48,263 bases of DNA from Candidatus Eiseniibacteriota bacterium (GTDB taxonomy: Bacteria; Joyebacterota; Joyebacteria; Joyebacterales; Joyebacteraceae), in assembly GCA_030622115.1 (NCBI GenBank), contig JAUXGN010000019.1, forward strand, positions 1-48,263. Reading direction: 5' to 3'. The position numbers were made by a program, and so were the translations under genes. The number at the start of each line of letters is the position of its first letter. The first letter of the stretch is position 1. Shown here in pieces: positions 6,693 to 45,762 of the stretch. The notes below the pieces were generated by a model. It did no database searches, was not told the DNA's origin, and saw only the letters and a program-made list of their open reading frames with translations.

Positions 6693-8468
6693 CTATCTCA
6701 GAAGCACGAGCTTCTTTCGTGCTTCGTAATTGCCTGCCTTGAAATGGTAGAAGTAGACCCCAGAACCGACCCCCTCGCCGGATGAGTCCTTTCTGTCCCA
6801 TGTGACAGTGTGGCTTCCGGCGTCGTCTGTGCCCGAGACAATGGTCCGCACGGATTCACCCTTGAGATTGTAGAGGACCAGGCTCACCTCGGTGGCAACC
6901 GGGATCGAGTAGGTGAACTGGGTAAGCCCTGTCTGGCCTTTGACCGGATTGGGGAAGTTCTGGGATATCGAGTAGTCCGGCAGCAATGCGGTAAACGTAG
7001 TGTGGGCTACGTTATTATCCTCGTCGATCTCGGCCAGGAACGAATCCGGGTCGACAACCACATAGAAATCGTGGGGGTCGGTGTCCTGCGGTGTCCACTC
7101 ACACGAGAGAGTACCGACGCCGTTGCTCGGGATGTAGTACGCTTGGAACCAACTCTCGTCGTATTCGTCGAGCACGTCTGCCATGATGTTTGTGTCACCC
7201 ACAAAATCTTCGACAAGCAGCACGCCTCCAGCTCCGGGTTCACCGTTCCATATCTGTACCGTGATACGGGCACTGTCCGGCGGGTCGGAAGCTCTCGGCT
7301 CGACGCTCAATCCACAGCGATTGTAATCCGGGTTGTTACCGCCTGACCGAGTGTAGGTCTCTGCTTCGATGTGGACGTCTCCGACTTGGATCCAGTCCAG
7401 GAAATAGTCGGGGTCGTAGTCCATCTGGTACGTGCCCATGAAGATGCGGTGCGGCCCGGCCGCGATCGGCACATCGGAGATAGTGACCTCCCGCCAGATG
7501 TTCGTGTCTCCAAGGCCGGGCACGGTCGTCGTGACGAGATGAAGACCATCAAGTTCGAACCGCCAGTCAACGTCATGATTGTCACGGCAGCGGCAAGAGA
7601 TGTCGACCGTCTCCGAAGTGGGGTATGTGAAGTCCCATTCCCCCCAGCAGGAGCGGCCGATTGGCGAGTACCACCCGTGTGCGGCCTCGGCCTGACAGAG
7701 CCCGTAGTTGTGGATACTAGCTGTGATCGTTACTGTCTCACCGACAAACAGGGTCGGGTTGTCGGTGACGATGTCCAGCGGCAGAAGTCCATAGTCCCAC
7801 TCCTCCCATCTGGGAAAGCAATAGTCTTCGACCATTGAAACGGCATAGTCGGCTGAACCCGAGGTCTCGACGTCAAGGTACGGAGCGAATTCGCCGTACT
7901 CCTTGCTGCAGAGCTTCACCAACGGGATGCTGACATTGCCCCACCTGGTCGTGTCGCGGACAACCCATCCGTATAATCCATGTGGGTTGGTGAGGTAGTT
8001 GAAGTCCGCGGTCACATCGAAGGACAACCACTGCCCGGTTGAGCTCGGGACGGTGGCCATGGCTGTCGGATCGCTCGCGAATGCCGGCCGCGAGGTCCAC
8101 GTGACGCTATTCTCGATCCACGCCTCCGTCACCCGATGGCATGTGAGCGCACGGCCGGCGGGGTCTGTGTTGCCGTGCTCGCAGTAGTATAGATGAAGCG
8201 TTGCGGATGTTACCTCGCAGCCGTACTGGATCTCCGAGAGGAGGAACTGGACGAGAGCATCGTATCCGAAATCATTGTCACCCGGCGACTGCCCAGAACG
8301 GTTCCTCACGAACAGGAGTTCAGATGCTCCGTAGTTGACATTCGGCTCGTTCATCCGGATGTAGGCGTCATCAGAAGCGTTGATTCCGACGGCATCCATT
8401 GTGAACGCGGAGGAGACAAGAACAAGAGCCGTCAGCAAGGACATCAGAACAGCACGCACGCTCAACAT
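6693..8468 (-). CDS. Secreted DNRLRE/CARDB protein with FlgD-Ig-like C-terminal sorting domain
   Basis: 591 residues. In order: a signal peptide (hydrophobic stretch, residues 5-25); a DNRLRE-type beta domain (about 28-190, beginning 'DDAYIRMNEPNVNYGAS', typical of cell-surface carbohydrate or adhesive proteins); a CARDB-like beta-sandwich region ending in 'IDEDNNVAH'; and a FlgD-Ig-like C-terminal domain (about 501-591) with 'NFPNP', 'YNLKGE', 'GSGVYFY' and a basic end, KKLVLLR. This end resembles Por/type IX secretion tails. The start has AGGAGG 7 bases upstream. It lies 23 bases behind the oligoendopeptidase gene and is likely co-transcribed with it. No catalytic motif is seen; the function is probably structural or adhesive. 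Confidence 0.85.
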   Translation of the reverse strand: MLSVRAVLMSLLTALVLVSSAFTMDAVGINASDDAYIRMNEPNVNYGASELLFVRNRSGQSPGDNDFGYDALVQFLLSEIQYGCEVTSATLHLYYCEHGNTDPAGRALTCHRVTEAWIENSVTWTSRPAFASDPTAMATVPSSTGQWLSFDVTADFNYLTNPHGLYGWVVRDTTRWGNVSIPLVKLCSKEYGEFAPYLDVETSGSADYAVSMVEDYCFPRWEEWDYGLLPLDIVTDNPTLFVGETVTITASIHNYGLCQAEAAHGWYSPIGRSCWGEWDFTYPTSETVDISCRCRDNHDVDWRFELDGLHLVTTTVPGLGDTNIWREVTISDVPIAAGPHRIFMGTYQMDYDPDYFLDWIQVGDVHIEAETYTRSGGNNPDYNRCGLSVEPRASDPPDSARITVQIWNGEPGAGGVLLVEDFVGDTNIMADVLDEYDESWFQAYYIPSNGVGTLSCEWTPQDTDPHDFYVVVDPDSFLAEIDEDNNVAHTTFTALLPDYSISQNFPNPVKGQTGLTQFTYSIPVATEVSLVLYNLKGESVRTIVSGTDDAGSHTVTWDRKDSSGEGVGSGVYFYHFKAGNYEARKKLVLLR

Positions 8469-8491
8469 ACGCGGACCTCCTGTATCACCAG

Positions 8492-10306
8492 TCAGTCGAG
8501 TTCGCAATACCTGTCGATCTGCCTTGCCATCACATCGATACTGGCGTCCCAGAAGTCGCGCGAGCGGATGTCGATCCCGTAGCGCGCCGCCAGATCGGCC
8601 GCCTTTCCCTCGCCCGTGCTTCTGAGAAGCTCCTTGTAGCGCGGGAGGAACGACTCGCCCTCCTTGAGGTAGATCGCATATACGCCAAGCCCGAACAGAA
8701 GGCCGAAGGCATAGGGGAAATTATAGAAATTGTAGTCGTGGCTGTAGTAGTGCGGCTTGAGTAGCCACATGTACTCGTGTAGATGGTGCCTATCAAGCCC
8801 GTCGCCGTAGGCCTGGCGCTGCGCGTCGAGCATGATCTCGCAGAAGTCGTCCGCAGAGACAGTGGACTCAGCTCTCCGCGAGACCACCTCTGTCTCAAAG
8901 ATGTAGCGCGAGTAGATATCCACGATGACCTGGGCGGCGTCCATGATCTGGTTCTCAAGGATGCCGAGCTGCGCCTCCGGCGGTGATGACTCAAGCGCGG
9001 CGTTGATGACTATCGTCTGACAGAAGATAGACGCCGTCTCAGCAAGGGTCATCGGAGAGCCCTTGCGCATCATCGGGAGTCCAACCTGACAGTGGTTGTG
9101 GAAGCCGTGTCCCAACTCGTGTGCCAGCGTGCTCATCTGATCGAAACTGCCGTCGAAGTTCGCGAGGATACGCGATTCTTCGACTCCGGGAACGCTCATA
9201 CAGAAGGCGCCGCCCACCTTGCCGTCGCGCGGCTCCGCGTCGATCCAGTTCTTCTCAAAAGCATTCCTCGCGAAATCAGCAAGCTCACTCGAGAACGTCC
9301 CGAACTGCTCGACAATGTAGTCCCGCACTTCCGGCCAGGTGTAGGAGAGCTCAACCGATCCAACAGGGGCGAAGAGATCCCACCAGGGTAGACTCTCCTT
9401 GCCCAGTTTCTTCGCCTTGCATTTGAAGTACCGTCTGAAGGTAGGTAGGGAGGCCTTCATCGATGTCAGGAGCGCATCAAGCGTCTCCTTGTCTATCATG
9501 TTATCGTCGAGAGACTTGTCGAGTACGCCCTTGCGGCCGCGTCGCTTGGCGAGTGTCAAAGCAGTACCCTTGACACCGTTCAGGGCGAAGGCGACCGGCT
9601 CTCGTATGGACGCCCAACCCTCAAGCTCCGTTTCGTAGGCGCGTCGACGAATGTCCTCGTCCGGGTTGTTTGAGAGGTTGCGAATGGCCGTCATCGGCAA
9701 CATCTCCGTCTTCCCGTCGCGCTCGAACGGCATCTTAAGCTGGCTCGTGACCGTGCTCTGAAGCATGCTGAGATTGCCCCCGCCGGAGAAGACCAGGAGC
9801 TCAGAGGCGAGGTTCTCCATCTCAGGTGTCATCCTGTACTTGCTCTGTTCGGCGATATCTACAAGCGCCTGTTTGTGCTCCTTGACGACGGGTGATCGAT
9901 CGCAGAGCGCATCGAGGACTGGGGCGATCGAGCCGATCCAGGCCTCAAACAGAACGAAGGAACTCGAGAGCTTGACGCCGAGCTGTCTGAGTTCACTTTC
10001 CTTCTTCGCGGCGATCTTGTCGTACGTGTTCGTCGTGGTGAAGCCACCGATGAACGCTCCAAGCGTCCTTGCAAGAACCATAGTTCTGTTCAGGAGGTTG
10101 ATCAGGGCCTCGAGCGCTGCGGCCGCCTTGTCGAGGTCCTCCGGTACGGTATCAAGCCGCTTGATCCCCTTGTCCTCGATGAAAGACTCCAGATCTCCAA
10201 GAAGGCCCTCGTATTCCCTCTTTCCAGCCGCAAGGTCGTCTGCCTCAAGATCGGTGTAGATGTTGGACATATCCCAACAGGGAAGCTTCTCGGTCACATT
10301 CTGCAT
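8492..10306 (-). CDS. Oligoendopeptidase F-type zinc metallopeptidase (family M3)
   Basis: 604 residues, typical for PepF-like M3 peptidases. It carries the zinc motif HELGH (His396, Glu397, His400) and a downstream Glu423 in 'LAETASIF', the expected third ligand position. The N-terminal half is helical, as in M3 enzymes, which enclose the active site and accept only short peptides. There is no signal peptide, so it would act in the cytoplasm on oligopeptides taken up or made by the exported proteases encoded nearby. The start has GGGAGGG 5 bases upstream. It is divergent from the DUF4097-like gene. Confidence 0.93.
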   Translation of the reverse strand: MQNVTEKLPCWDMSNIYTDLEADDLAAGKREYEGLLGDLESFIEDKGIKRLDTVPEDLDKAAAALEALINLLNRTMVLARTLGAFIGGFTTTNTYDKIAAKKESELRQLGVKLSSSFVLFEAWIGSIAPVLDALCDRSPVVKEHKQALVDIAEQSKYRMTPEMENLASELLVFSGGGNLSMLQSTVTSQLKMPFERDGKTEMLPMTAIRNLSNNPDEDIRRRAYETELEGWASIREPVAFALNGVKGTALTLAKRRGRKGVLDKSLDDNMIDKETLDALLTSMKASLPTFRRYFKCKAKKLGKESLPWWDLFAPVGSVELSYTWPEVRDYIVEQFGTFSSELADFARNAFEKNWIDAEPRDGKVGGAFCMSVPGVEESRILANFDGSFDQMSTLAHELGHGFHNHCQVGLPMMRKGSPMTLAETASIFCQTIVINAALESSPPEAQLGILENQIMDAAQVIVDIYSRYIFETEVVSRRAESTVSADDFCEIMLDAQRQAYGDGLDRHHLHEYMWLLKPHYYSHDYNFYNFPYAFGLLFGLGVYAIYLKEGESFLPRYKELLRSTGEGKAADLAARYGIDIRSRDFWDASIDVMARQIDRYCELD

Positions 10307-16269: not shown

Positions 16270-17883
16270 CTAGCGGAGAATCACTATCTTCGAGGAGATC
16301 TCTGTGTCTGCGGTATTGAGCCTGATGAAGTAGACGCCTGCAGCCACCTCCTCGTTGCCGATGCCACGGCCATTCCACTGAGCCTCGTGCATTCCCAAGG
16401 ACAACACTGCATCAACAATCGTCGCGACCTTTCGTCCTCCGGCATCGTACACGGCGAGTTCGACGTGTGCTTGGGTAGGAATGGAGAATCCAAAATGACA
16501 CGTGTTCCTAAACGGGTTCGGGGCTGGAGGCGCCAGATAGACGGCGCCATAGCTGTCGGCTCCGCTTCGTCCCTCAGCCGCAAGCAGCGAGCCTGTCGCC
16601 GACTGGTTCCAGGTAGGGATGTAGTCGTTGATCAACGCCCAGCGGACCTGGCGACCGAGCTTCTTGTGATAGTACCCCTTGTAGATCGTGGCGGCCGTGG
16701 CGGCGTGCTCGAGGAGTTCGTCCATTCCTGCTCCGCACACGACGGCGAAATCGACCACGAAGGTCTCACCATCCTGGACGTTGCTGAACGGCCCGGCGGA
16801 GATCGTGGTTCGCCAGTCCTTCGGCTCAACGTCCTCGAGATAGATGCCGGGCTCGCTGAGATAGACGTACCGCTCCGCGTCGCTGGCGGGATCAGCGGGA
16901 GGCCCTCCGGCGGCCTGTCCCCAAGTCCTGACGGCGCGTGGTTCAACAGAGATCGGAGCGTTCACCCCGGCTGCATCGATCGGGTGGCCAAGAAGCACGA
17001 ATCCTACGAGACCGTCCCAATCGCCGTCATCGCCGCCGGGGAAATCCCACGCGTACACCATCGTGATCCTCACGGGAGGGTAGTGGCCCTCAAGCCCCGG
17101 TGCGGCCACGGTGTCGATGTACCCGGTCGCATCATCGGCCCAGTTCATGGCTGTACCATTTCCCACGTCAGGATCTGCCAGGAGACCAACAAAGACATCG
17201 TCGAGCGGAGCTCCTGAGATGTTCGTGATGTGGTATCTCACGCCGACGAAATCGTCACGGTCATCCTCGCCCCAGGCGAACGTCTCTTCGTGCACCTCGA
17301 TGCCTATCGGTATATGGGCTTCTATCGGGGGAGGGTCCCCAAGATCTACGGTGTCAAAATACGTCCGCGCGTACATCTGCCTGGAGATGCCGCCGTAATC
17401 CTCATCGATCAACCCATCGCCATCATTATCGATGCCGTCGAGGCGTTCCTCGTCGATCAGACTGTCGCCGTCATCGTTGTGGAATCGGAAGCCCGGAGGA
17501 GCGTATCCGGTACCCGCGTAGACGTGGAAGATCGGATCGTCGAGCTTCGGGCGAAACTCCATCGCGTAGGCAGCTGTAGTGACGAGCGAGTCCCCATTCA
17601 CCTTTGCTCCTATCCACGGTCCAGCCACATAGAGATGTTCGTAGCCACTAGCCTTCGGCCACTCGGCTGACGGTCCGTCGCCGGCGCCGAACGTTCCCAG
17701 GAGGCCGATGTTGCAGACGTGGAGTACCAGCTCTCCGTCATCGTGCCACCACTCGTACCAATCGATATCCCGGGATGGTGACGGCGCTGTCATGGATGAC
17801 GCGAAGATGGCCGGCGCGACGATAAGCGCGACTACTACTGTGGCTGTTACGGAGGCGAACACGACACGCGTTCCGAGTCGCAT
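16270..17883 (-). CDS. Secreted protein with calcium-type repeats and FlgD-Ig-like C-terminal sorting domain
   Basis: 537 residues. A signal peptide occupies residues 1-29. Residues 136-163 hold two aspartate-rich loops ('NDDGDSLIDEE' and 'NDGDGLIDED') resembling the calcium-binding loops of thrombospondin type 3/dockerin-like repeats. The middle (about 170-440) is beta-rich and has no catalytic motif I recognise. The end (about 450-537: 'APNPF', 'YDAGGRKV', 'AAGVYFIRL', final SSKIVILR) is a FlgD-Ig/Por-tail domain that would direct export or surface attachment. AAGGAG lies 7 bases before the ATG. It converges with hflX. Function unknown; a surface protein is likely. Confidence 0.83.
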   Translation of the reverse strand: MRLGTRVVFASVTATVVVALIVAPAIFASSMTAPSPSRDIDWYEWWHDDGELVLHVCNIGLLGTFGAGDGPSAEWPKASGYEHLYVAGPWIGAKVNGDSLVTTAAYAMEFRPKLDDPIFHVYAGTGYAPPGFRFHNDDGDSLIDEERLDGIDNDGDGLIDEDYGGISRQMYARTYFDTVDLGDPPPIEAHIPIGIEVHEETFAWGEDDRDDFVGVRYHITNISGAPLDDVFVGLLADPDVGNGTAMNWADDATGYIDTVAAPGLEGHYPPVRITMVYAWDFPGGDDGDWDGLVGFVLLGHPIDAAGVNAPISVEPRAVRTWGQAAGGPPADPASDAERYVYLSEPGIYLEDVEPKDWRTTISAGPFSNVQDGETFVVDFAVVCGAGMDELLEHAATAATIYKGYYHKKLGRQVRWALINDYIPTWNQSATGSLLAAEGRSGADSYGAVYLAPPAPNPFRNTCHFGFSIPTQAHVELAVYDAGGRKVATIVDAVLSLGMHEAQWNGRGIGNEEVAAGVYFIRLNTADTEISSKIVILR

Positions 17884-22752: not shown

Positions 22753-22911
22753 ACATGATGTTGACCCGCGATGGAACCGGTGCGTTTCTGGTGTTGTCGC
22801 GGGCCTCCACTGAAAGTGTCCGGTAGACGATGGCATAGCTATCTGCCTAGACCTATGGAAAGGGAGACTGCGTCGCGGCGGCGCGGAGACCCACCGTTGG
22901 AGGAGGACGAG

Positions 22912-25900
22912 ATGGTTTTGGCTCGAGTCCGGATGGCCCCGGTTGCGGCTATCGCGATCGTAGGTGCTTTCCTCGTGGCCGGCAGCGCAGTCGCCGGCAT
23001 TGTTACGCAGCACTACGAGTTCACCGAGCCCGTGGTGAAATCGGTCGGCGACTACGTTAGCGTTCAGATTGACGGCGCGTGGCACTACGGTGACCCGGGC
23101 GCCCCGGTTCTGCCCATGATGGGTGCACGGATTCTGCTGCCGCCCGGTGAGGTTGTCACTGATGTGACGATCGTACCCGGTGAGAAGCTGGCTCTCGGCG
23201 ACGGTTTCATTGTCGAGCCGGGGCAGATGCAGTATCCGCTGAGCTTCACGGGGCCCATCGACATCATCGTGCCGAATCCCGATGTCTACAACGTCCGCGG
23301 CGCGTACCCGGGACGGACTCACGACGAGGAAACCGTCGGGTCGTTCCGCGGCTACAGCATCGCCAACATCGCGCTTCACCCTGTCGAGTATGTCCCGGAG
23401 ACAGGAGAGCTCTCGTACTACTCAAGCATGGACGTTGTCGTGACGACGGCGCCGGAGACGGACGCGAGATTCAATGTCGAGAAGATGATCAGACACGATG
23501 AGTCGACCATGGTTCGCGTGGAGCGGATGATCGACAACGCGAGCGATCTGGCGGCCTACAGAAGTGTAGAGCGCGTGTACTCCGGAAGCCGCGCTCTTGA
23601 TCCGGCCGACGCTTACACATACCTCATTATCACGACCGAGTCGTGGGACGAGTATCTCGACACGCTCGTCGACTTCGAGACGACGATGGGACACAAGGCT
23701 GCGATCTTCCTGAGCTCGTGGATCCAGACCAACTACACCGGCGTCGATGAGCAGGATCAGATTCGCAACTTCATAATCGATGCGTACGGCACGTGGGATG
23801 TCGAGTACGTACTCCTGGTCGGTGACGCCCGTGACGCGAACGGCATCCCGCACAGGGGTCTCTACTCAACGACGACCTACGGGTACACGGATGAAGACAT
23901 ACCCGCCGATCTCTACTACAGCTGCCTCGACGGGAATTGGAACGATGATGGCGACGGCCGCTGGGGAGAGCCCGGTGAGGACGATCTCTATCCTGAAATC
24001 GGTGTCGGCCGCGCCTGCGCCAGCAATGCCACGCACGTTCAGAACTTCGTTACCAAGGTGATGCGCTACGTCAACTCGCCGGTCGTATCCGAGAGCGACG
24101 AGGCGCTGATGGTCGGCGAGCTGCTCTGGTCAAGTCCGCTCACCTATGGTGGTACGTACATGGAGCAGATCAGGCTCGGCTCGAGCGCCAACGGCTACAC
24201 GACCGTCGGCTTCCCGGGCACAATGAACGTGGACACCCTCTACGACATGGACGGCGGCACATGGAGCAAGAGCACGCTCATCAGCTTGATGGAAAACGGC
24301 ATCAACATTGTCAATCACCTCGGGCACTGTGGTGTTCAGTACTCGGCGAGGATGTACAACGCGGATATCCCTTCCTTCGACAACGACGGGACCGTTCACA
24401 CGTACAACTTCTTCTACTCGCAGGGCTGCTACAACGGGTCGTTCGATAACCGGATGGACACTGGTGACTACACCGGCGATTGCTTCGGCGAGGAGTTCAA
24501 CTGTGATGACGATGGCGCAGTTGCCTGCGTTCTGAACTCGCGCTACGGTCTCGGTGATCCAGGAGGAACCAACGGTTCGTCGCAGTTCTTCCACCGCGAG
24601 TTCTTCGATGCGATATTCGACGAGGATATCTACCCACTCGGCTTCGTGAACAGTGACTCGAAGGTAGATGTCATCTGGAATCTCGCCTACGGCGGGAACA
24701 GGTGGTGCTTCTACGAGCTGAACCTCTTCGGTGATCCGGCAATGCATCTCTGGACCGCTTCACCGATAGCGATGAATGTCTCGCACCCGAGCGGCATGGT
24801 CGTTTGTCAGCCTGACATAGTGGTCACTGTCTCCGACGGGAGCAGGGCGGCCGTCGTAGGTGCTGTCGTGACGGTCTACTACGATGACTACTCCGTCTAT
24901 GCCACCGGAATCACTAATGCGGCCGGACAGGTCACACTGAGTCCTGATCCGCAGGTTCCGGGCACGCTCTACATCAAGGTGAACGCGCACGACCGGCTCG
25001 TCTGGACGGGCGATCTTGAGGTTGTCCCGGCGTCGGGGCCGTATGTTGTCTACAACGACAGCACGGTGGACGACGATACGAGCGGCGAGAGTAACGGTAA
25101 CGACGACGCCATCGCGAATGCGGGGGAGACGATTGAGCTTCCTACGACACTTGAGAATGTCGGCAGCGATCCCGCTACCAACGTGCGCGCGACTCTCAGT
25201 ACGACAAGCGGCTACGCGGCGATTACCGATGACTATGAAGAGTACGGTAACATCGCGGCCACAGCCACGGCGCTGTCGTACGATGACTATTGTATCGTGA
25301 TCGCGTCCAATGCTCCGGACGGTGAGGTCATCACATTCGATCTTGCTATTGAATCCGACGATACCAGGATGAGCTGGCTGTCCGGCCTTACCGTACAGGT
25401 TTCAGCTCCCGATCTGATCTACGCCGACCATGAGGCCAGCGATGCTCCGAGCAACGGGAATGGGTGTCTTGAGGCGGGTGAGACAATCGATATCTCAGTG
25501 TCGCTTCTGAACGACGGGAGCGCGCGGGCCTCCGGGCTCACGGCAACCATCTCGACCAGTAGCCCGTACATTCAGATGAACAATGCGACGGACACCCTTC
25601 CGTTCATCAACGCCGGTGTGGTGGGAGACTTCACCGGTTTCTCGATAACTCTCCTGCCGGACACGCCCGATTATTACTCGATCGATTTCGATGTGGATGT
25701 TGTGGGTGACTGGGGTTACACGAGCAGCGCCTTATTCAGCATCTCCACGGCCGGTAGTGAATTTGCGGACGACGTCGAGTCCGGTCAGGGTGAATGGACA
25801 CACAGCAATGTGACCGGTGGATTCACAGATCAGTGGCACATCGATACGTACAGAAGCAACTCGACAAGCCACAGCTGGAAGTTCGGAGGAAACGGTTCTG

Positions 25901-26610
25901 CCAACTACACGGACTCGGCTGATGGCGCCCTGTACACGCAGGAACTCTGCATCGGCGCCGATGGGCAGATGACCATGTGGCACTGGATGGATGCTGAGGA
26001 GGAGAGCTCAACCTCGGCGTGGGATTGCGGCCTGGTTCAGATCTCCGATGACGGCGGCGCTTTGTGGGTGGGACTCACACCAGACGGCGGGTACTCGCAC
26101 GCCAAGAACGACAACGCCTCCAATCCACTCCCGACCGGCACGCCGTGCTGGTCAGGGAGTATCAGCTGGAGACAGGAGACGTTCGACCTTTCGGCCTACG
26201 AAGGCGGGACAGTTCAGATCCGGTTCCGGTTTGTATCGGACGGATATGTCACCGAAGAGGGGTGGTACGTCGATGACATCAACATAACGAGTTCGGGTGG
26301 CGGCACGGATGTTGAGGATCCTGTCACTCCTCACACGTTCGCTGTCCTGCAGAACGTTCCGAACCCGTTTAATCCAATGACGGCCATCAGCTACCAGCTG
26401 CCTGAGTCGGCGCGTGTGACCGTTGAGGTCTACAATGTCGCCGGCAAGCGTGTCAGCGTGCTCGTTGATGAGCATCAGGAGCCTGGCTGCAAGTCGATCG
26501 TCTGGGACGGCACCAACGACAGAGGCCAGAAGGTCGCGAGCGGCGTCTACCTCTACAGGGTGAGCGCCGGTGACAGAGTGGTCGAGAAGAGGATGGTTCT
26601 TCTCAAGTAG
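22912..26610 (+). CDS. Secreted gingipain-like C25 cysteine peptidase with Ig, MAM-like and FlgD-Ig tail domains
   Basis: 1232 residues. In order: signal peptide (1-28, AVA cleavage); propeptide-like beta region (about 30-220); C25 catalytic domain (about 234-610) with His472 in 'NHLGHCG' and Cys506 in 'YSQGCYNGSF', the expected dyad; an Ig-like segment; two related CARDB-like repeats, each with a 'GETI(E/D)' core ('ANAGETIEL', 'LEAGETIDI'); a MAM/immune-inhibitor-A-like domain ending 'GWYVDDINI'; and a FlgD-Ig sorting domain (about 1143-1232) ending VVEKRMVLLK. Gingipains are exported by type IX secretion in Bacteroidetes. GGAGGAGG lies 5 bases before ATG 22912; the frame is open further upstream without a ribosome site. 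It is monocistronic, with a strong terminator. Confidence 0.92.
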   Translation: MVLARVRMAPVAAIAIVGAFLVAGSAVAGIVTQHYEFTEPVVKSVGDYVSVQIDGAWHYGDPGAPVLPMMGARILLPPGEVVTDVTIVPGEKLALGDGFIVEPGQMQYPLSFTGPIDIIVPNPDVYNVRGAYPGRTHDEETVGSFRGYSIANIALHPVEYVPETGELSYYSSMDVVVTTAPETDARFNVEKMIRHDESTMVRVERMIDNASDLAAYRSVERVYSGSRALDPADAYTYLIITTESWDEYLDTLVDFETTMGHKAAIFLSSWIQTNYTGVDEQDQIRNFIIDAYGTWDVEYVLLVGDARDANGIPHRGLYSTTTYGYTDEDIPADLYYSCLDGNWNDDGDGRWGEPGEDDLYPEIGVGRACASNATHVQNFVTKVMRYVNSPVVSESDEALMVGELLWSSPLTYGGTYMEQIRLGSSANGYTTVGFPGTMNVDTLYDMDGGTWSKSTLISLMENGINIVNHLGHCGVQYSARMYNADIPSFDNDGTVHTYNFFYSQGCYNGSFDNRMDTGDYTGDCFGEEFNCDDDGAVACVLNSRYGLGDPGGTNGSSQFFHREFFDAIFDEDIYPLGFVNSDSKVDVIWNLAYGGNRWCFYELNLFGDPAMHLWTASPIAMNVSHPSGMVVCQPDIVVTVSDGSRAAVVGAVVTVYYDDYSVYATGITNAAGQVTLSPDPQVPGTLYIKVNAHDRLVWTGDLEVVPASGPYVVYNDSTVDDDTSGESNGNDDAIANAGETIELPTTLENVGSDPATNVRATLSTTSGYAAITDDYEEYGNIAATATALSYDDYCIVIASNAPDGEVITFDLAIESDDTRMSWLSGLTVQVSAPDLIYADHEASDAPSNGNGCLEAGETIDISVSLLNDGSARASGLTATISTSSPYIQMNNATDTLPFINAGVVGDFTGFSITLLPDTPDYYSIDFDVDVVGDWGYTSSALFSISTAGSEFADDVESGQGEWTHSNVTGGFTDQWHIDTYRSNSTSHSWKFGGNGSANYTDSADGALYTQELCIGADGQMTMWHWMDAEEESSTSAWDCGLVQISDDGGALWVGLTPDGGYSHAKNDNASNPLPTGTPCWSGSISWRQETFDLSAYEGGTVQIRFRFVSDGYVTEEGWYVDDINITSSGGGTDVEDPVTPHTFAVLQNVPNPFNPMTAISYQLPESARVTVEVYNVAGKRVSVLVDEHQEPGCKSIVWDGTNDRGQKVASGVYLYRVSAGDRVVEKRMVLLK

Positions 26611-39959: not shown

Positions 39960-42101
39960 CTACGTGATGAAAAGAAGACCGATCCTATAGACGCCGAAGC
40001 TCACAAGCCAGGCAAGCACGAACTGGTAGAGGATGGAGAACCACATCCACAGCGTACCGATCTCGCGTCGCGTGGCCATTATGGCGACGACGCACGGAGT
40101 GTAGATGAGAACAAAGAGCATGAAGCCGAACGCTGCGAGAGGAGTAATGCCGCTTTCCGGGGCACTGATCGCCGTTGCGAGTGAGTCCTCCGAGTCAGTG
40201 CCGACCTGGTAGAGTACGCCCATGGTTGACACGACGACTTCCTTCGCCACGAAACCCGTGATGAGGCTCACTCCCATCTCCCAAGTGAACCCGAGCGGCC
40301 GTATCAGGGGCTCTATGGCCTTTCCGGTTCTTCCTATGTACGAGTTCTCGATCTCCTCGGCCGCACGCATCGTCGCAAGCACATCAACCTGCTCGGTCGT
40401 CTCAGAGCTACCGAGGGCCAGAAGCGTCTCTATCTCAGCATCGTAGTCCCGCGAGAAATCTGCGGTCTTTGGGAAGGCGCCGAGGAACCAGAGAATCACG
40501 GAGGCAACAAGGATGACGCCGCCCATCTTCTGGAGGTAGATTCTCGCACGTTCCCACATGTGGATGAGAAGCCCCTTGCCGGTCGGCATGCGATATGGAG
40601 GGAGTTCCATTACAAACGGAGCCGACTCGCTTCGGAAAAGGGTGCGTGAGAAGAGACGGCCTATGAGAAGAGAGAGAGCGACCCCGATCGCATACATGAG
40701 AAAGACGATGCTCCCTGCTTGTTCAGCGAAGAACGCTCCCGCGATGAGAATGTAGACGGGGAGCTTGGCGCTGCAGGACATGAGCGGCACGAGAAGTACG
40801 GTGAGGATCCGGTCTTTCCTTGACTCGAGTGTGCGCGTCGCCATTATGGCGGGCACCGAGCATCCGAACCCCATCAGGAGCGGGATGAACGACTTCCCGT
40901 GGAGGCCGAGTGCATGCATCAGCCTGTCCATCAGGAACGCTGCCCGCGCCATGTACCCCGTGTCCTCGAGTATCGCGATACCGAAGAAGAGGATCATGAT
41001 GTTTGGAAGGAACACAATGACTGAACCTACACCTCCAATGATCCCATCCACAATGAGGTCTGTCAGAAGAGATGGCGGAAGAACGCCCAAGGCCGCGCCC
41101 GACAGCCATTCCACGAACGACTCGATCCAGCCCATCGGATAGCTGCCCAGCGAAAACGTCGCTTGGAAAAGCAGCCACATGAAGATGAGGAAGATAGGGT
41201 AACCGAGGAATCTGTTCGTGAAGACGTCGTCTATCCGTCTCGACAGCTCCATGCGATCGACCGGATCATCGACCGCAGTGAGCGCCTCCCTGAGCGCGCC
41301 TTGAATGTACCCGTAGCGGCCTTCTGAGATGACCTTCTCGGGATCGGATCCCGTGGCCGTTCGTATATGTTTCCCGGCCCTTGTGACCATCTCTCTGATT
41401 TGATGCGTCTCTTCTGAGTCCGGTCGGAGTCTCTGAAAAACCTTGGTATCGCCTTCCAGAAGCTTGATCGCCATCCAGCGCGGCGGGTAATCGCCCGTAG
41501 TCTCCGGGCCGGCCTCCAGGAGGTCGGTCAGTTCAGCGAGGACATCATTGACGTGGGATCCATACGAGACTGGTACGTGCCGGTGGTGCTCTTCACGGTT
41601 CTCGAAAAGCGTGATCGCGGCATCCACGAGTTCCTCCACGCCGCTGCCGCGATGCCCGACCGTCGTCACGATGGGGGCGCCTGTGAGTCTGTGAAGCTTC
41701 TCGATATCGAGTTTCGTGCCCATGCTCTCAAACTCATCCCACATGTTGAGGTCGAGAACAAGATCAACGCCGAGTTCCATGAGCTGCACGGTCAAGTAGA
41801 GGTTGCGTGCGAGATTGCCCGAGTCAATAACGTGTATGACGACGTCGGGATGCTCGTCGATGATGAATGAGCGGGCGGCCCGCTCCTCGACGGAGTAGGC
41901 AGTGAGACTGTAGGTTCCGGGCAGGTCCACCAGCTCGATCGAGTACCCGTTCTGCTCGAAGTGGCCCGTCTTCTTCTCGACAGTGACGCCCGGGTAGTTG
42001 CCGACCTTTTGGCGGGCGCCGGTCATGGCGTTGAAGATGGTGGTCTTGCCGGAGTTAGGGTTGCCGGCGAGGGCTATTCTGAGCGTCTTGCGATCAGTCA
42101 T
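39960..42101 (-). CDS. feoB: Ferrous iron transporter FeoB
   Basis: 713 residues. The inner-membrane Fe(II) uptake protein. The N-terminal G domain has GNPNSGKT (13-20), the switch sequence 'GNYPGVTVE', DLPG (about 59-62) and 'NMWDE' as the usual FeoB G4 variant. A helical regulatory region follows, then the membrane domain with the conserved 'GFGCSVPAIMATR' and 'SAKLPVYI' gate motifs and a second gate repeat near the end ('AKEVVVSTMG'). The start overlaps the current feoA reading frame. Upstream are feoA, a Cys-rich Feo partner and a DtxR-type regulator. Confidence 0.97.
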   Translation of the reverse strand: MTDRKTLRIALAGNPNSGKTTIFNAMTGARQKVGNYPGVTVEKKTGHFEQNGYSIELVDLPGTYSLTAYSVEERAARSFIIDEHPDVVIHVIDSGNLARNLYLTVQLMELGVDLVLDLNMWDEFESMGTKLDIEKLHRLTGAPIVTTVGHRGSGVEELVDAAITLFENREEHHRHVPVSYGSHVNDVLAELTDLLEAGPETTGDYPPRWMAIKLLEGDTKVFQRLRPDSEETHQIREMVTRAGKHIRTATGSDPEKVISEGRYGYIQGALREALTAVDDPVDRMELSRRIDDVFTNRFLGYPIFLIFMWLLFQATFSLGSYPMGWIESFVEWLSGAALGVLPPSLLTDLIVDGIIGGVGSVIVFLPNIMILFFGIAILEDTGYMARAAFLMDRLMHALGLHGKSFIPLLMGFGCSVPAIMATRTLESRKDRILTVLLVPLMSCSAKLPVYILIAGAFFAEQAGSIVFLMYAIGVALSLLIGRLFSRTLFRSESAPFVMELPPYRMPTGKGLLIHMWERARIYLQKMGGVILVASVILWFLGAFPKTADFSRDYDAEIETLLALGSSETTEQVDVLATMRAAEEIENSYIGRTGKAIEPLIRPLGFTWEMGVSLITGFVAKEVVVSTMGVLYQVGTDSEDSLATAISAPESGITPLAAFGFMLFVLIYTPCVVAIMATRREIGTLWMWFSILYQFVLAWLVSFGVYRIGLLFIT

Positions 42102-42549
42102 TGCGCTTCACTTCCCCTCGCCTGCGGAGGCGGTTCCAGAACCCGGAGCCGGAAAGGCTCTGTCCGGATCCTGCTCGAGCGGAGCGGCGTCGCGTGCCGG
42201 CACCGTCGCGGTGACGTCCTGAGCCGTCTCTTCGGCGAGGTCCGAAGTCGGAGCCATCACGCTGCCCGCGCCGTCTGCCGACCGGTCTCTGCCGGCAGTA
42301 GGGGATCTCGTGTGGACGGACGAGTACCTGCTCTGCCTCTGTCTTCCGAAGCGTAATGTGAACGCCGCCGATGCAGTATTCGATAGGATCGTCAAGTGGA
42401 GCACGCTTCACAACGCGGACGAATGTTCCGCTTACAAATCCCATGTCAAGAAGCCTGCGCCGAAACGCACCTTCGCCGCGCACGTCCACGACAAGCGCTC
42501 CGTCACCGGGGGAGAGGGTGCTAAGAGATATCGCTTCATTCGAACGCAT
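42094..42549 (-). CDS. feoA: FeoA, probably frameshifted near its C-terminus
   Basis: As sequenced, 151 residues. The first 80 are a normal FeoA SH3-like domain ('LLDMGFVSGTFVRVV', 'DPIEYCIGGVHITLRKTEAE'), a small cytoplasmic partner that activates FeoB. After 'VRPHEIP' the frame becomes an arginine-rich run unlike any FeoA. Removing one base from the GGGG run at 42301-42304 (CCCC on the coding strand) moves into a frame rich in Ala, Glu, Asp and Pro that ends at TGA 42110-42108, 6 bases before the feoB start. That looks like a real C-terminus. Either a sequencing or natural frameshift is present, or the tail is unusual. Start at ATG 42549 with AGAGGA upstream. Confidence 0.85.
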   Translation of the reverse strand: MRSNEAISLSTLSPGDGALVVDVRGEGAFRRRLLDMGFVSGTFVRVVKRAPLDDPIEYCIGGVHITLRKTEAEQVLVRPHEIPYCRQRPVGRRRGQRDGSDFGPRRRDGSGRHRDGAGTRRRSARAGSGQSLSGSGFWNRLRRRGEVKRND

Positions 42550-42742
42550 TGCAATCCTCTCTGTTCTCGGTTGGGTCGTCGGTGGAGGTGGTACACGAGG
42601 ATGCATGCATACAGCCTGCGCACGGAACCCCACCGCGAACTCCGTCGTGAGCACTGTCTGGTGGCCGGGTCGATATCCACACACGGCGCGCCAGCCATGC
42701 GATGGCTCCGACCAGGATGATCCCCAGAGTGAGTGTCTGCAT
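42536..42742 (-). CDS. FeoB-associated Cys-rich membrane protein
   Basis: 68 residues. One N-terminal membrane helix ('TLGIILVGAIAWLARRVW', residues 3-20) followed by a short tail with cysteines in 'CAGCMHASSC', which matches the small FeoB-associated Cys-rich family. It probably helps iron delivery or FeoB assembly at the inner membrane; the mechanism is unknown for the family. AGGAG lies just before the ATG. It starts 6 bases after the DtxR stop codon and its end overlaps the feoA start by 14 bases, which supports translational coupling. Confidence 0.85.
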   Translation of the reverse strand: MQTLTLGIILVGAIAWLARRVWISTRPPDSAHDGVRGGVPCAGCMHASSCTTSTDDPTENREDCNAFE

Positions 42743-42748
42743 GATCTC

Positions 42749-43117
42749 CTACCGCTCCTTCTCCATGAACCTGGTGAGTCTGGCAACAGTGTCGGCGCTG
42801 AGATCGTGCTCCAGCCTGCATGCTTCTGCGTCGGCTCTCTCGTGTTCAACGCCCAGCGTGTCGTGAAGGAAACGGAAGAGCAGGGTGTGGGTCCTGTAAA
42901 TCTCCGCTGCCCGAAGTCGCCCTTGCTCTGTGAGAACGACCTTGCCGTAGTGCTCCTGGCGAACAAACCCTTTCCTCTTCAGCCTGTCGACGCCGGAGCG
43001 TGCTGTCGGGATTGTCACACTCCTCTCGGCGGCGACCTGCGAGACCCCGACCGTGTCGTGCTTCAGAGAGAGAAGGTATATCGTCTCCAGATAGTCTGTT
43101 GCTTTGACCGAGAGCAT
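42749..43117 (-). CDS. DtxR/MntR-family metal-dependent repressor
   Basis: 122 residues: a winged helix-turn-helix and the dimerisation/metal domain, without the SH3-like third domain of IdeR/DtxR. Visible metal ligands: Asp8 and Glu11 (as in MntR), His77, and Cys100/Glu103/His104 in 'EACRLEH', which copies the IdeR/DtxR pattern rather than the MntR glutamate. The gene heads the feo operon, so it most likely represses Fe(II) uptake when iron is plentiful, and itself too. The Shine-Dalgarno is weak (GAGGAC close to the ATG). A consensus promoter lies about 30 bases upstream of the start codon. Confidence 0.9.
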   Translation of the reverse strand: MLSVKATDYLETIYLLSLKHDTVGVSQVAAERSVTIPTARSGVDRLKRKGFVRQEHYGKVVLTEQGRLRAAEIYRTHTLLFRFLHDTLGVEHERADAEACRLEHDLSADTVARLTRFMEKER

Positions 43118-43282: not shown

Positions 43283-44515
43283 CTATCTGTACATCGTCTT
43301 GATCGTTCCCCAGGACGTCTTCCTGACGGGTGATTCCACACAGCCCTGTAGGTAGGCACCGATATCGGCAGACCAGTCGTTGTGACCGGGCAGACAAGGG
43401 GACGTCGACGCCAGTGTCAGATCATCGATCGTGACATCACAGAAGAGCGGGTCGGAGATGATGTATTCGATCGTGAGGGCGCCCGGCAGCGTGTTACCAG
43501 GGGCGTTGCCGTAGGAGCAGCACCGCTGGATGTCCACGTCGCTCGAGACATCGACATAGATGACTGAATCGTCACACTCGGCTGTGAAGGCGAAGATGCA
43601 GTTCCACGTGTTCGGATATGAACCCGTGTTGACGTGGAGCGTGCCGCCTTGCTCTGATCCACTGTTCGAGACGAACGTGCAATTCATGAAGATGGGCGTG
43701 GAGCCGCTCGTGATATGCGCGGCGCCTCCCCAGACGTCGCCGGTATTTCTGATGAACGAGCAGTTGAGGAACCAGGGCGCAGCATGTGAGCACGTCAGCG
43801 CTCCGCCTGCCAGGTCCGTGATGTTGTCTGAGAACACGCAGCGTCTGAACTCGGCGTCGCATTGCCACCCGAAGTACGCAGCGCCACCCTCGTCGCCGCC
43901 GGAATTGCCGGTGAATGTAGTGTCAAAGAACCTGGGTTGTGACGCGTTGTCGCAGTAGACGGCGCCGCCTCTCGACGCTTGGTTTTCGTCGAACCTGCAG
44001 TCCCGGAAGACGGGTGAGGAGTTATCACAAAACACCGCACCTCCATTCTGTCCGGAGCACGTGTTGCTGCTGAAGATGCAGCTGAGGAATCGCGGACTCG
44101 CGCCGACACACCGGACGCCGGCACCGTCACTGCCGGATATGGTCATTCTTCCGTTCGCCAAGGTGAACCCCTCTACGACACACGTTGTATCCTGTCCTCC
44201 GCCGTTGAAGTCGATGCAGCGATGATTATGCTCTGTCTCACAATCGATGATCGTGAGGATGGCCCCCGACTCGCCTCGGAGCACGAGGTTCTTTGTGCCG
44301 AAGTCAAGGTCGCGATTGCCGTCACCGGTATAGGTGCCCGCGACGACGAGAACCGTGTCTTCTTGGGCTGCCTCATCGAGACCCTCCTGGATCGTCAGGT
44401 ATTCGCCACCGCCGGCGTGGTCAACGATGTGCGTCTCGGAATGGCTTAACGCCGCGCAGGCAAGCAATCCCGCGCATCCAAGCAGTGCAATCGTGGTCTT
44501 GGTGCCTCTGCGCAT
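43283..44515 (-). CDS. Secreted right-handed beta-helix protein (copy 1), C-terminal WGxIKxxYR motif
   Basis: 410 residues. A signal peptide (1-25), then a pectate-lyase-like right-handed beta-helix with repeating 'GGA', 'F.(N/D)C.F' and 'NN/DN' turns (Pmp/DUF1565 style: 'GGAVFCDNSSPVFRDCRF'). About six cysteines line the turns. The end is 'SWGTIKTMYR', shared with its neighbour. No catalytic residues for polysaccharide lyase activity can be assigned; a surface adhesin or carbohydrate-binding role is equally likely. AGAGGAG lies 6 bases before ATG 44515. Only 11 bases separate it from copy 2, so the pair is one transcription unit. Confidence 0.85.
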   Translation of the reverse strand: MRRGTKTTIALLGCAGLLACAALSHSETHIVDHAGGGEYLTIQEGLDEAAQEDTVLVVAGTYTGDGNRDLDFGTKNLVLRGESGAILTIIDCETEHNHRCIDFNGGGQDTTCVVEGFTLANGRMTISGSDGAGVRCVGASPRFLSCIFSSNTCSGQNGGAVFCDNSSPVFRDCRFDENQASRGGAVYCDNASQPRFFDTTFTGNSGGDEGGAAYFGWQCDAEFRRCVFSDNITDLAGGALTCSHAAPWFLNCSFIRNTGDVWGGAAHITSGSTPIFMNCTFVSNSGSEQGGTLHVNTGSYPNTWNCIFAFTAECDDSVIYVDVSSDVDIQRCCSYGNAPGNTLPGALTIEYIISDPLFCDVTIDDLTLASTSPCLPGHNDWSADIGAYLQGCVESPVRKTSWGTIKTMYR

Positions 44516-44526
44516 TGTTGTCTCCT

Positions 44527-45762
44527 CTACGGCCGTCTGTACAAGGCCTTGATGGCGCCCCAGCTCCTGTTCTGAACCGGTGAGAGTGTGCAACCCTGGC
44601 CGAGCGCGCCGAGCGCGACGCCCCACGGGTTGCGTGGGGGCGACGGCATGCAGGGCGAGTTGGCGGCCAGCGAGAGTTCATCCTCCGTGATGTCGCAGAA
44701 GAGAGGATCCTCGAAGATAATGCCGTCGACGTTTCCACAGACGTCGTTCCCGTTGGGGTTGGCGAAGGAGAGGCAGTAGTGGATCGTTGGCGTGCTGGTT
44801 CCGTCGCAGTAGAACGTCGAGGCACCGTCTTCGTGGGAGAACGCGAAGATGCACTTGTCGAAGGTCGGGTTGGATGTCGACCACGCGTAGTAGACGGAGC
44901 CGTCGCCGAGCGAGCGGTTCTTCACAAATGTGCAGCTGGTGAAAATGGTGTCCGAGACTTGGTCATAGACAGCTCCGCCGACCGTTGTTGCAAGGTTGTT
45001 GAGAAAGACCACTCCCTCGACAGTCGCCGTCGACTGCCAGGAACCGAACGCGCCGCCTTGATCGCCGGACGTGTTTCCCTCGAACCATGCCGTTCTGATG
45101 ACGGCGTCGCAGTCGTAATTGCACGCCATGCCCCCGCCAAAGCCGGTGGAGGCGGAGTTGTTCGTGAACGTGCAGTTGCGGACGATGGCAGGCGAGTTGG
45201 ACCCGCAGTAGAGTCCACCGCCGCTTGAGAGGGTGGTGTTCGATTCGAAAACGCAGTTCTCAAAGACGGGTGCGCAGAAGTTGCTGACATAGACGCCGCC
45301 ACCGTTGCCGCCGTGGTTGGCGTTGTTCCTGATGATGAGGTTGACAAACTTCGGGCTGGTCAGCATCTCGATGCGGATGCCGGCGCCCACGTCGCCCGCT
45401 TGGACGAACCGGCCCCCCGCGACTGTGAATCCGTCGATCACACAGGTCGTATCCTGGCGTCCATTGTAGAAATTGAAGATGCGATGACCGCCAACGCTGT
45501 CGTTGTCGATTATCGTTGCCTCCGCCCCTGATTCGCTCACGAGCAGGAGGTTCTTTGTTCCGAAGCTGAGGTCGCGGTTGCCCTCGCCGGTGTAGGTGCC
45601 GGCGACGACGAGAACGGTGTCCGCTTCGGCCGCCTCATCGAGGCCGGCCTGGATCGTGAGATGATCACCGCCGCCTGCGGCGTCGACCGTGATGACGTTG
45701 GCAGCCAGCGGAAGCGCCGCGAGCATCAGGAGTGCAAGCAGAACCAACAGCAATCTGTTCAT
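44527..45762 (-). CDS. Secreted right-handed beta-helix protein (copy 2), C-terminal WGxIKxxYR motif
   Basis: 411 residues with a clear signal peptide (1-21, cleavage after LAA). It has the same architecture as copy 1: an opening 'DHLTIQAGLDEAAEADTVLV', 'VAGTYTGEGNRDLSFGTKNL', then repeated beta-helix turns, then a 'DPLFCDITEDELSLAANSPC' end block and final 'SWGAIKALYR'. The opening and closing blocks are nearly identical between the copies, while the helix turns differ, so the ends are under stronger constraint. AAGGAGG lies 8 bases before the ATG. It is the first gene of the pair, 29 bases after the PLP enzyme on the same strand. Confidence 0.86.
   Translation of the reverse strand: MNRLLLVLLALLMLAALPLAANVITVDAAGGGDHLTIQAGLDEAAEADTVLVVAGTYTGEGNRDLSFGTKNLLLVSESGAEATIIDNDSVGGHRIFNFYNGRQDTTCVIDGFTVAGGRFVQAGDVGAGIRIEMLTSPKFVNLIIRNNANHGGNGGGVYVSNFCAPVFENCVFESNTTLSSGGGLYCGSNSPAIVRNCTFTNNSASTGFGGGMACNYDCDAVIRTAWFEGNTSGDQGGAFGSWQSTATVEGVVFLNNLATTVGGAVYDQVSDTIFTSCTFVKNRSLGDGSVYYAWSTSNPTFDKCIFAFSHEDGASTFYCDGTSTPTIHYCLSFANPNGNDVCGNVDGIIFEDPLFCDITEDELSLAANSPCMPSPPRNPWGVALGALGQGCTLSPVQNRSWGAIKALYRRP

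Follow-up and report, generated by a model that had tools for sequence, protein, structure and literature searches.

Two adjacent genes for exported proteins in a 48,263-nucleotide stretch of DNA (hereafter, the window) end in nearly the same ten residues, which raises the question of whether this short C-terminus merely reflects shared descent or is a sorting or anchoring signal, as a preliminary description of the locus proposed. Both genes lie on the minus strand. The ORF of gene 1 (44527–45762, 411 aa) and that of gene 2 (43283–44515, 410 aa) match the Beta_helix family PF13229 (E-values of 1.6e-11 and 1.7e-11, respectively), and the two proteins are 44% identical, so that the description of the pair as right-handed beta-helix paralogues is borne out; judged by this identity, the pair is not a very recent duplicate.

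The two beta-helix genes and their C-termini

The mechanical ORF of gene 2 (43283–44626, 447 aa) reaches upstream of the likely start, the ATG at 44515, which is where the signal peptide begins and which lies 11 bases past the stop of gene 1. The likely signal peptides are MNRLLLVLLALLMLAALPLAA in gene 1 (45700–45762, minus strand; from the translation) and MRRGTKTTIALLGCAGLLACAALSHS in gene 2 (44438–44515, minus strand; from the translation, a hydrophobicity rule and a helix at residues 7–22 of the model), the end of each being an estimate. The AlphaFold2 model of the gene 2 protein is a beta-helix with a mean pLDDT of 90. Polymorphic membrane protein (PMP) repeat models match the window proteins, yet the 410-residue model is a beta-helix without a barrel, in contrast to the C-terminal beta-barrel domain that follows the PMP repeats in polymorphic membrane proteins or autotransporters of the Chlamydia type. 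Downstream of the pair, on the same strand (39960–43117), inspection by eye identifies an apparent DtxR-type regulator, FeoA and FeoB (iron uptake).

The proteins terminate in SPVRKTSWGTIKTMYR (SWGTIKTMYR) and SPVQNRSWGAIKALYR-RP (SWGAIKALYR-RP). In gene 2, the tail PVRKTSWGTIKTMYR (43286–43330, minus strand; motif match at 43287–43312, with the translation) is followed directly by the stop, and in gene 1, the tail is PVQNRSWGAIKALYRRP (44530–44580, minus strand; motif match at 44537–44562, with the translation). The near-identity of the ten residues noted originally is confirmed, and gene 1 runs two residues past the motif. As also noted originally, the tail is distinct from the C-termini of three other window proteins (6693–8507 and 16270–17883 on the minus strand, 22771–26610 on the plus strand), whose C-terminal sequences contain a long FlgD-like domain of the type IX secretion system (T9SS) type and whose ends read KKLVLLR, SKIVILR and KRMVLLK.

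A short C-terminal tag on many exported proteins

A search of the 2.63-Mb source genome for signal peptide proteins with this C-terminus, as suggested in the preliminary description, is positive: a DNA pattern that includes the stop identifies 36 ORFs ending exactly in WGxIKxx[Y/F]R, and the reversed pattern, used as a control, gives 0 matches. When the stop is not required, the motif is found in 46 places, most of them at, or a few residues from, the end of an ORF; it is followed by the stop or by a few residues at most, with no transmembrane segment. Under a simple hydrophobicity rule, a signal peptide is present in 24 of 24 tail proteins and in 15 of 16 proteins with FlgD-type ends vs 67 of 193 others (counts that cover the genome stretches read around motif matches). 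Over all loci, the 185 distinct tail proteins form 50 clusters of passenger sequences, of which 27 are singletons, and the passengers include adhesin-like beta-helix, FG-GAP and cleaved-adhesin families. These sequence statistics show that the tail is a modular tag at the C-terminus of Sec-exported proteins from many families. The possibility that the similarity is mere descent of recently duplicated beta-helix proteins agrees with the paralogy of the window pair but has a negligible probability, with about 50 unrelated passenger clusters, the 27 singletons and stronger conservation of the tail than of the passengers against it.

The tail consensus is [ST]PVExx[ST]WGxIKA[LM][YF]R-COOH (about PVExSSWGxIKALYR), with a conserved part of approximately 15 residues. 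About 145 of the 185 tails have proline at -15, valine at -14 and glutamate at -13, an enrichment that comes partly from loci picked with a PVE pattern, although the tails of the source genome found without it agree; serine or threonine is found at -10 in 177 of 185. The lysine at -5 is present in every tail and is required by the search patterns, yet the single-copy orthologues described below, including those found with an HMM, all have it as well. On average, the helical hydrophobic moment of the last 11 residues is 0.48, compared with 0.30 for shuffled sequences, whereas the strand-like moment is not raised, and 174 of 185 proteins have a tail with a net charge of at least +2. In the model of gene 2, the tail forms a helix at residues 402–409 (pLDDT below 50). 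Searches of family models, and of a library of papers by motif letters, found no curated family or paper describing the tail.

The preliminary description held that confinement of the motif to the window duplicates, or its occurrence inside other proteins, would make a sorting role unlikely. The spread over the passenger clusters removes the first objection, but the second applies to three MAM-like paralogues of the source genome (L012:1117–2529, L184:3–1310 and L175:1027–2490, on contigs C42 and C26), in which the motif sits inside a loop (e.g., ..SQTTVENISWGAIKARYRESDEGERPSGVRDERP..), while homologues about 50% identical to them bear it at the C-terminus. With the genome-wide motif, the 50 clusters and only these three internal copies, the duplication-only and mid-protein readings are mostly rejected. 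The internal copies are odd for a terminal secretion signal and suggest that the peptide is a binding element, perhaps without need of a free end. They likewise count against the idea that a periplasmic protease or quality-control factor recognizes the C-terminus as a tag, a role for which the short, strictly placed and conserved terminal residues would be suited; given that the internal copies look functional and that stable repeat proteins have no reason to carry a degron, this role appears very improbable.

Association with type IX secretion and a single-copy bearer

The tail was found in 58 of 386 sampled genomes, with 0 matches to the reversed pattern. All 20 genomes of the window phylum (one family, eight genera) carry it in 12–58 copies; outside this phylum, it is multi-copy in families f67, f99, f135, f174 and f215 and in one f26 genome, with single or few copies in other families. 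The motif-bearing contigs are labelled Eisenbacteria, Effluviviaceae, UBP1, Krumholzibacteriia and Coatesbacteria, among others. In genome G167, which is SprA-positive and fails the strict pattern, the protein L275:1495–2493 has the variant end SSWGEIKAEFK, and there are several similar HMM matches; the strict tail count is therefore a lower bound.

The T9SS translocon protein SprA (TIGR04189) is encoded in 55 of the 58 tail genomes vs 62 of the 328 others (Fisher p 7e-30) and in 27 of 27 tail-bearing families (p 2e-17), these p-values overstating independence, as the genomes are related. Three tail genomes lack SprA: two incomplete ones from the window family, and G121, in whose congener G258 SprA is present. 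The PorU sortase (NF033707) was detected in each of the 25 tail genomes tested for it, and all genomes tested have PorV-family proteins; among SprA-positive, tail-less genomes, G080 has no PorU and G130 gives a weak match, and G170 has both SprA and PorU, yet lacks the strict tail. In the source genome, contig C74 encodes SprA, and contig C77 encodes PorU and an adjoining PorV, all complete. In the sample tested, the tail is confined almost wholly to genomes with T9SS, as shown by these gene counts. The sortase associated with the tail is PorU of T9SS; a dedicated new sortase was not found. None of 14 tail genomes has a match above the cut-off to PorP/SprF, the type B shuttle family. Consistent linkage of tail genes to PorV-family genes was considered and rejected, and no dedicated shuttle is claimed because only one PorV-family place of the source genome (on C33) adjoins a tail gene. 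On the whole, the genome-wide occurrence of the motif, its location at the extreme C-terminus of signal peptide proteins and its tracking of T9SS genes support the initial proposal, and the tail is a candidate signal for sorting, anchoring or docking.

Homologous passengers provide another connection. For 58 of 156 tail proteins, there is a homologue that ends in a long FlgD-like domain instead; the one related to the window protein is encoded on contig C5 of the source genome (37% identity over 355 aa, 5e-50). None of the 185 tail proteins combines the tail with the long domain, the exception outside this set being L004:3–620 (contig C16), in which the tail PTTWGRIKALYR, with eight more residues after it, comes immediately behind a FlgD-like domain. 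These alignments show that homologous passengers bear either the tail or a long T9SS domain, the two being interchangeable. A linker motif of the [ST][GDPS]V.[DE] type precedes 33 of 88 long domains, compared with about 3 expected from shuffles and 2 of 83 for a control stretch; as [ST][GD]V.[DE], it lies 16–24 residues before the PNPF of FlgD-like domains, e.g., in the window protein at 22771–26610. The second residue of this motif is mostly glycine, whereas the short tails carry [ST]PVE, i.e., proline. At T9SS cleavage sites in other species, position +1 is usually a small residue, and in Prevotella intermedia, +2 is a conserved isoleucine (PMC11969387). It is possible that the linker motif is a T9SS processing site in these phyla and, further, that a processing site is common to the short tails and the long domains; the proline in the short tails could equally mean that they are not cleaved.

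The co-occurrence with T9SS might also result from the common ancestry of the phyla, with the tail serving as a basic amphipathic-helix anchor to the outer membrane or LPS that does not involve T9SS. The positive charge of most tails, the strong helical moment and the relatedness of the genomes are compatible with such an anchor, but the constraint on the tail (W, G, I and K invariant, the aromatic residue and R nearly so) is far stricter than membrane binding needs, the SprA association is complete at the family level, and the tail exchanges with T9SS domains, all of which makes an anchor of this kind quite unlikely.

In many genomes, the sole motif match is a protein of about 130–160 aa that consists of a signal peptide, an FN3-like domain and a TWGSIKA[ML]FR end (loci L216, L217, L218, L219, L226 and L319–L334). 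Among 36 sequences, most of which were picked by the motif, the domain has a mean consensus agreement of 38%, whereas the tail has W, G, I and K in every sequence and F and R in 97%. An HMM search that does not require the exact motif, with a profile that includes the tail region, adds eight orthologues, six with standard tails and two with altered ones (TWGSIKAIFTNRKNN and TWGSIKALLK). The AlphaFold2 model has a short helix at residues 118–128 with moderate confidence. No NCBIfam or Pfam model names this protein, and a Foldseek search with its model yields only generic FN3/Ig-type matches and FN3-containing enzymes.

In the phylum of genome G222, which is inferred from a full-length SprA match to be Bacteroidota, a count of the motif alone gives exactly one match for 55 of the 248 genomes and for 43 of the 123 genera. 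All 16 neighborhoods fetched from this phylum contain the FN3-like bearer, several beside a Maf-like gene, as do five of six short loci from the same search (L313 does not), and a few of the single matches may be due to chance. In five genomes from three families, porD is located near the gene of the bearer, adjoining it in three, about 1 kb away in one and less than 7 kb away in one; this amounts to 5 of 12 neighborhoods outside the Bacteroidota-type phylum and 0 of 16 inside. The periplasmic protein PorD is bound to SprE and belongs to the extended T9SS translocon (PMC10994853). With one tail protein per Bacteroidota-type genome, the bearer looks more like a machine part than a general signal. 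This context bears on the hypothesis that the tail docks, as a helix in the periplasm, on the inner face of T9SS barrels or the translocon and that its passengers are not secreted. The single small bearer near porD, the helix prediction, the internal-loop copies (if functional there) and the precedent of the SkpA C-terminal helix, which contacts the periplasmic side of PorV (PMC10994853), all point in this direction. Nevertheless, the passengers are adhesin-like and have homologues with long T9SS export domains, and it would be surprising if dozens of different clients were periplasmic, so that we regard periplasmic docking as unlikely.

Proposed role and relation to known sorting signals

The reading that we favor, with about even chances, is that the tail is a minimal, transplantable amphipathic-helix signal that docks passengers on the T9SS outer-membrane apparatus and leads them to the surface. 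After export to the periplasm, a passenger bearing the C-terminal tag would be recognized through the predicted positively charged amphipathic helix by an outer-membrane component of T9SS, most plausibly a complex of a PorV-family shuttle with SprA as the candidate receptor, and would thereby be sent to, or held at, the cell surface. The tail would then be a minimal alternative to the long FlgD-like domain of other proteins in the same genome. Its distribution suggests an origin in one conserved small FN3-like protein, probably followed by copying onto many passengers in the window phylum and a few others. More tentatively, with the balance tipping somewhat against it, the tail could be a new class of T9SS signal, far shorter than those described, that forms a helix where they form a beta domain; the conserved FN3-like protein, as yet undescribed and associated with T9SS, would be the ancestral bearer. 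Several points count against the favored reading: the strict tail is missing from many SprA-positive genomes, the predicted helix differs from the folded beta CTD, and proline follows the putative cleavage position, where long domains have glycine. Confidence in the favored reading is moderate because docking accounts for the internal copies somewhat better than a classical signal with cleavage would.

If the proposal is correct, dozens of hypothetical exported proteins per genome in several uncultured phyla would be assigned to one sorting route, and a peptide of 10–15 residues would do the work of a folded T9SS domain or dock proteins on the T9SS machine. The FN3-like protein, of which many Bacteroidota-type bacteria have a single copy, would be a candidate factor in lineages that likely include cultured species.

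The T9SS signals described so far fall into type A, B and C domains of about 70–100 aa (PMC10202324), and the folded beta CTD binds SprA and PorV (PMC10994853). Like the type A CTD (TIGR04183/PF18962; FlgD-like here), the tail is C-terminal on Sec-exported, often adhesin-like proteins with homologous passengers, carries a lysine close to the C-terminus and occurs in genomes with SprA, PorU and PorV. In contrast to the type A CTD, it comprises about 15 residues vs 43–80 or more, is predicted to be helical, with a short helix (low to moderate confidence) in place of a C-terminal beta-sandwich or three-stranded domain in the models, and has proline instead of glycine in the entry motif; the type A models match neither the window proteins nor ten other tail proteins, a 15-residue tail being a hard target. 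The short type A CTDs of P. intermedia (43–55 aa; PMC11969387) are likewise reduced T9SS signals, still predicted to bind PorV, but they keep three beta-strands and motifs B, D and E, none of which is present in the tail. For Hbp35, the last 22 residues are reported, in work cited in PMC11969387, as absolutely required.

The type B CTD (TIGR04131) is an alternative signal class too, with its own outer-membrane carrier PorP/SprF, but it has about 100 residues and five motifs, differs from the tail in size and sequence, and has no match in the tail proteins tested; PorP/SprF was not found. Because the tail does not pass the tests of the type A model and fold or that of the type B shuttle, it is not assigned to either type. 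PEP-CTERM, GlyGly-CTERM and LPXTG-type signals are also short C-terminal signals common to many unrelated exported proteins, but they combine a transmembrane helix with a basic tail, and the present tail has no transmembrane segment. Accounts of the tail as a known CTD or CTERM signal or through PorP/SprF were rejected for want of a match. The C-terminal helix of SkpA on PorV (PMC10994853) is another short helix of an exported protein that touches a T9SS barrel; SkpA is a single dedicated chaperone on the periplasmic side, and it is likened to the tail by description rather than by sequence. Taken together with these systems, the tail may work like a C-terminal sorting tag and may represent a new class of T9SS signal.
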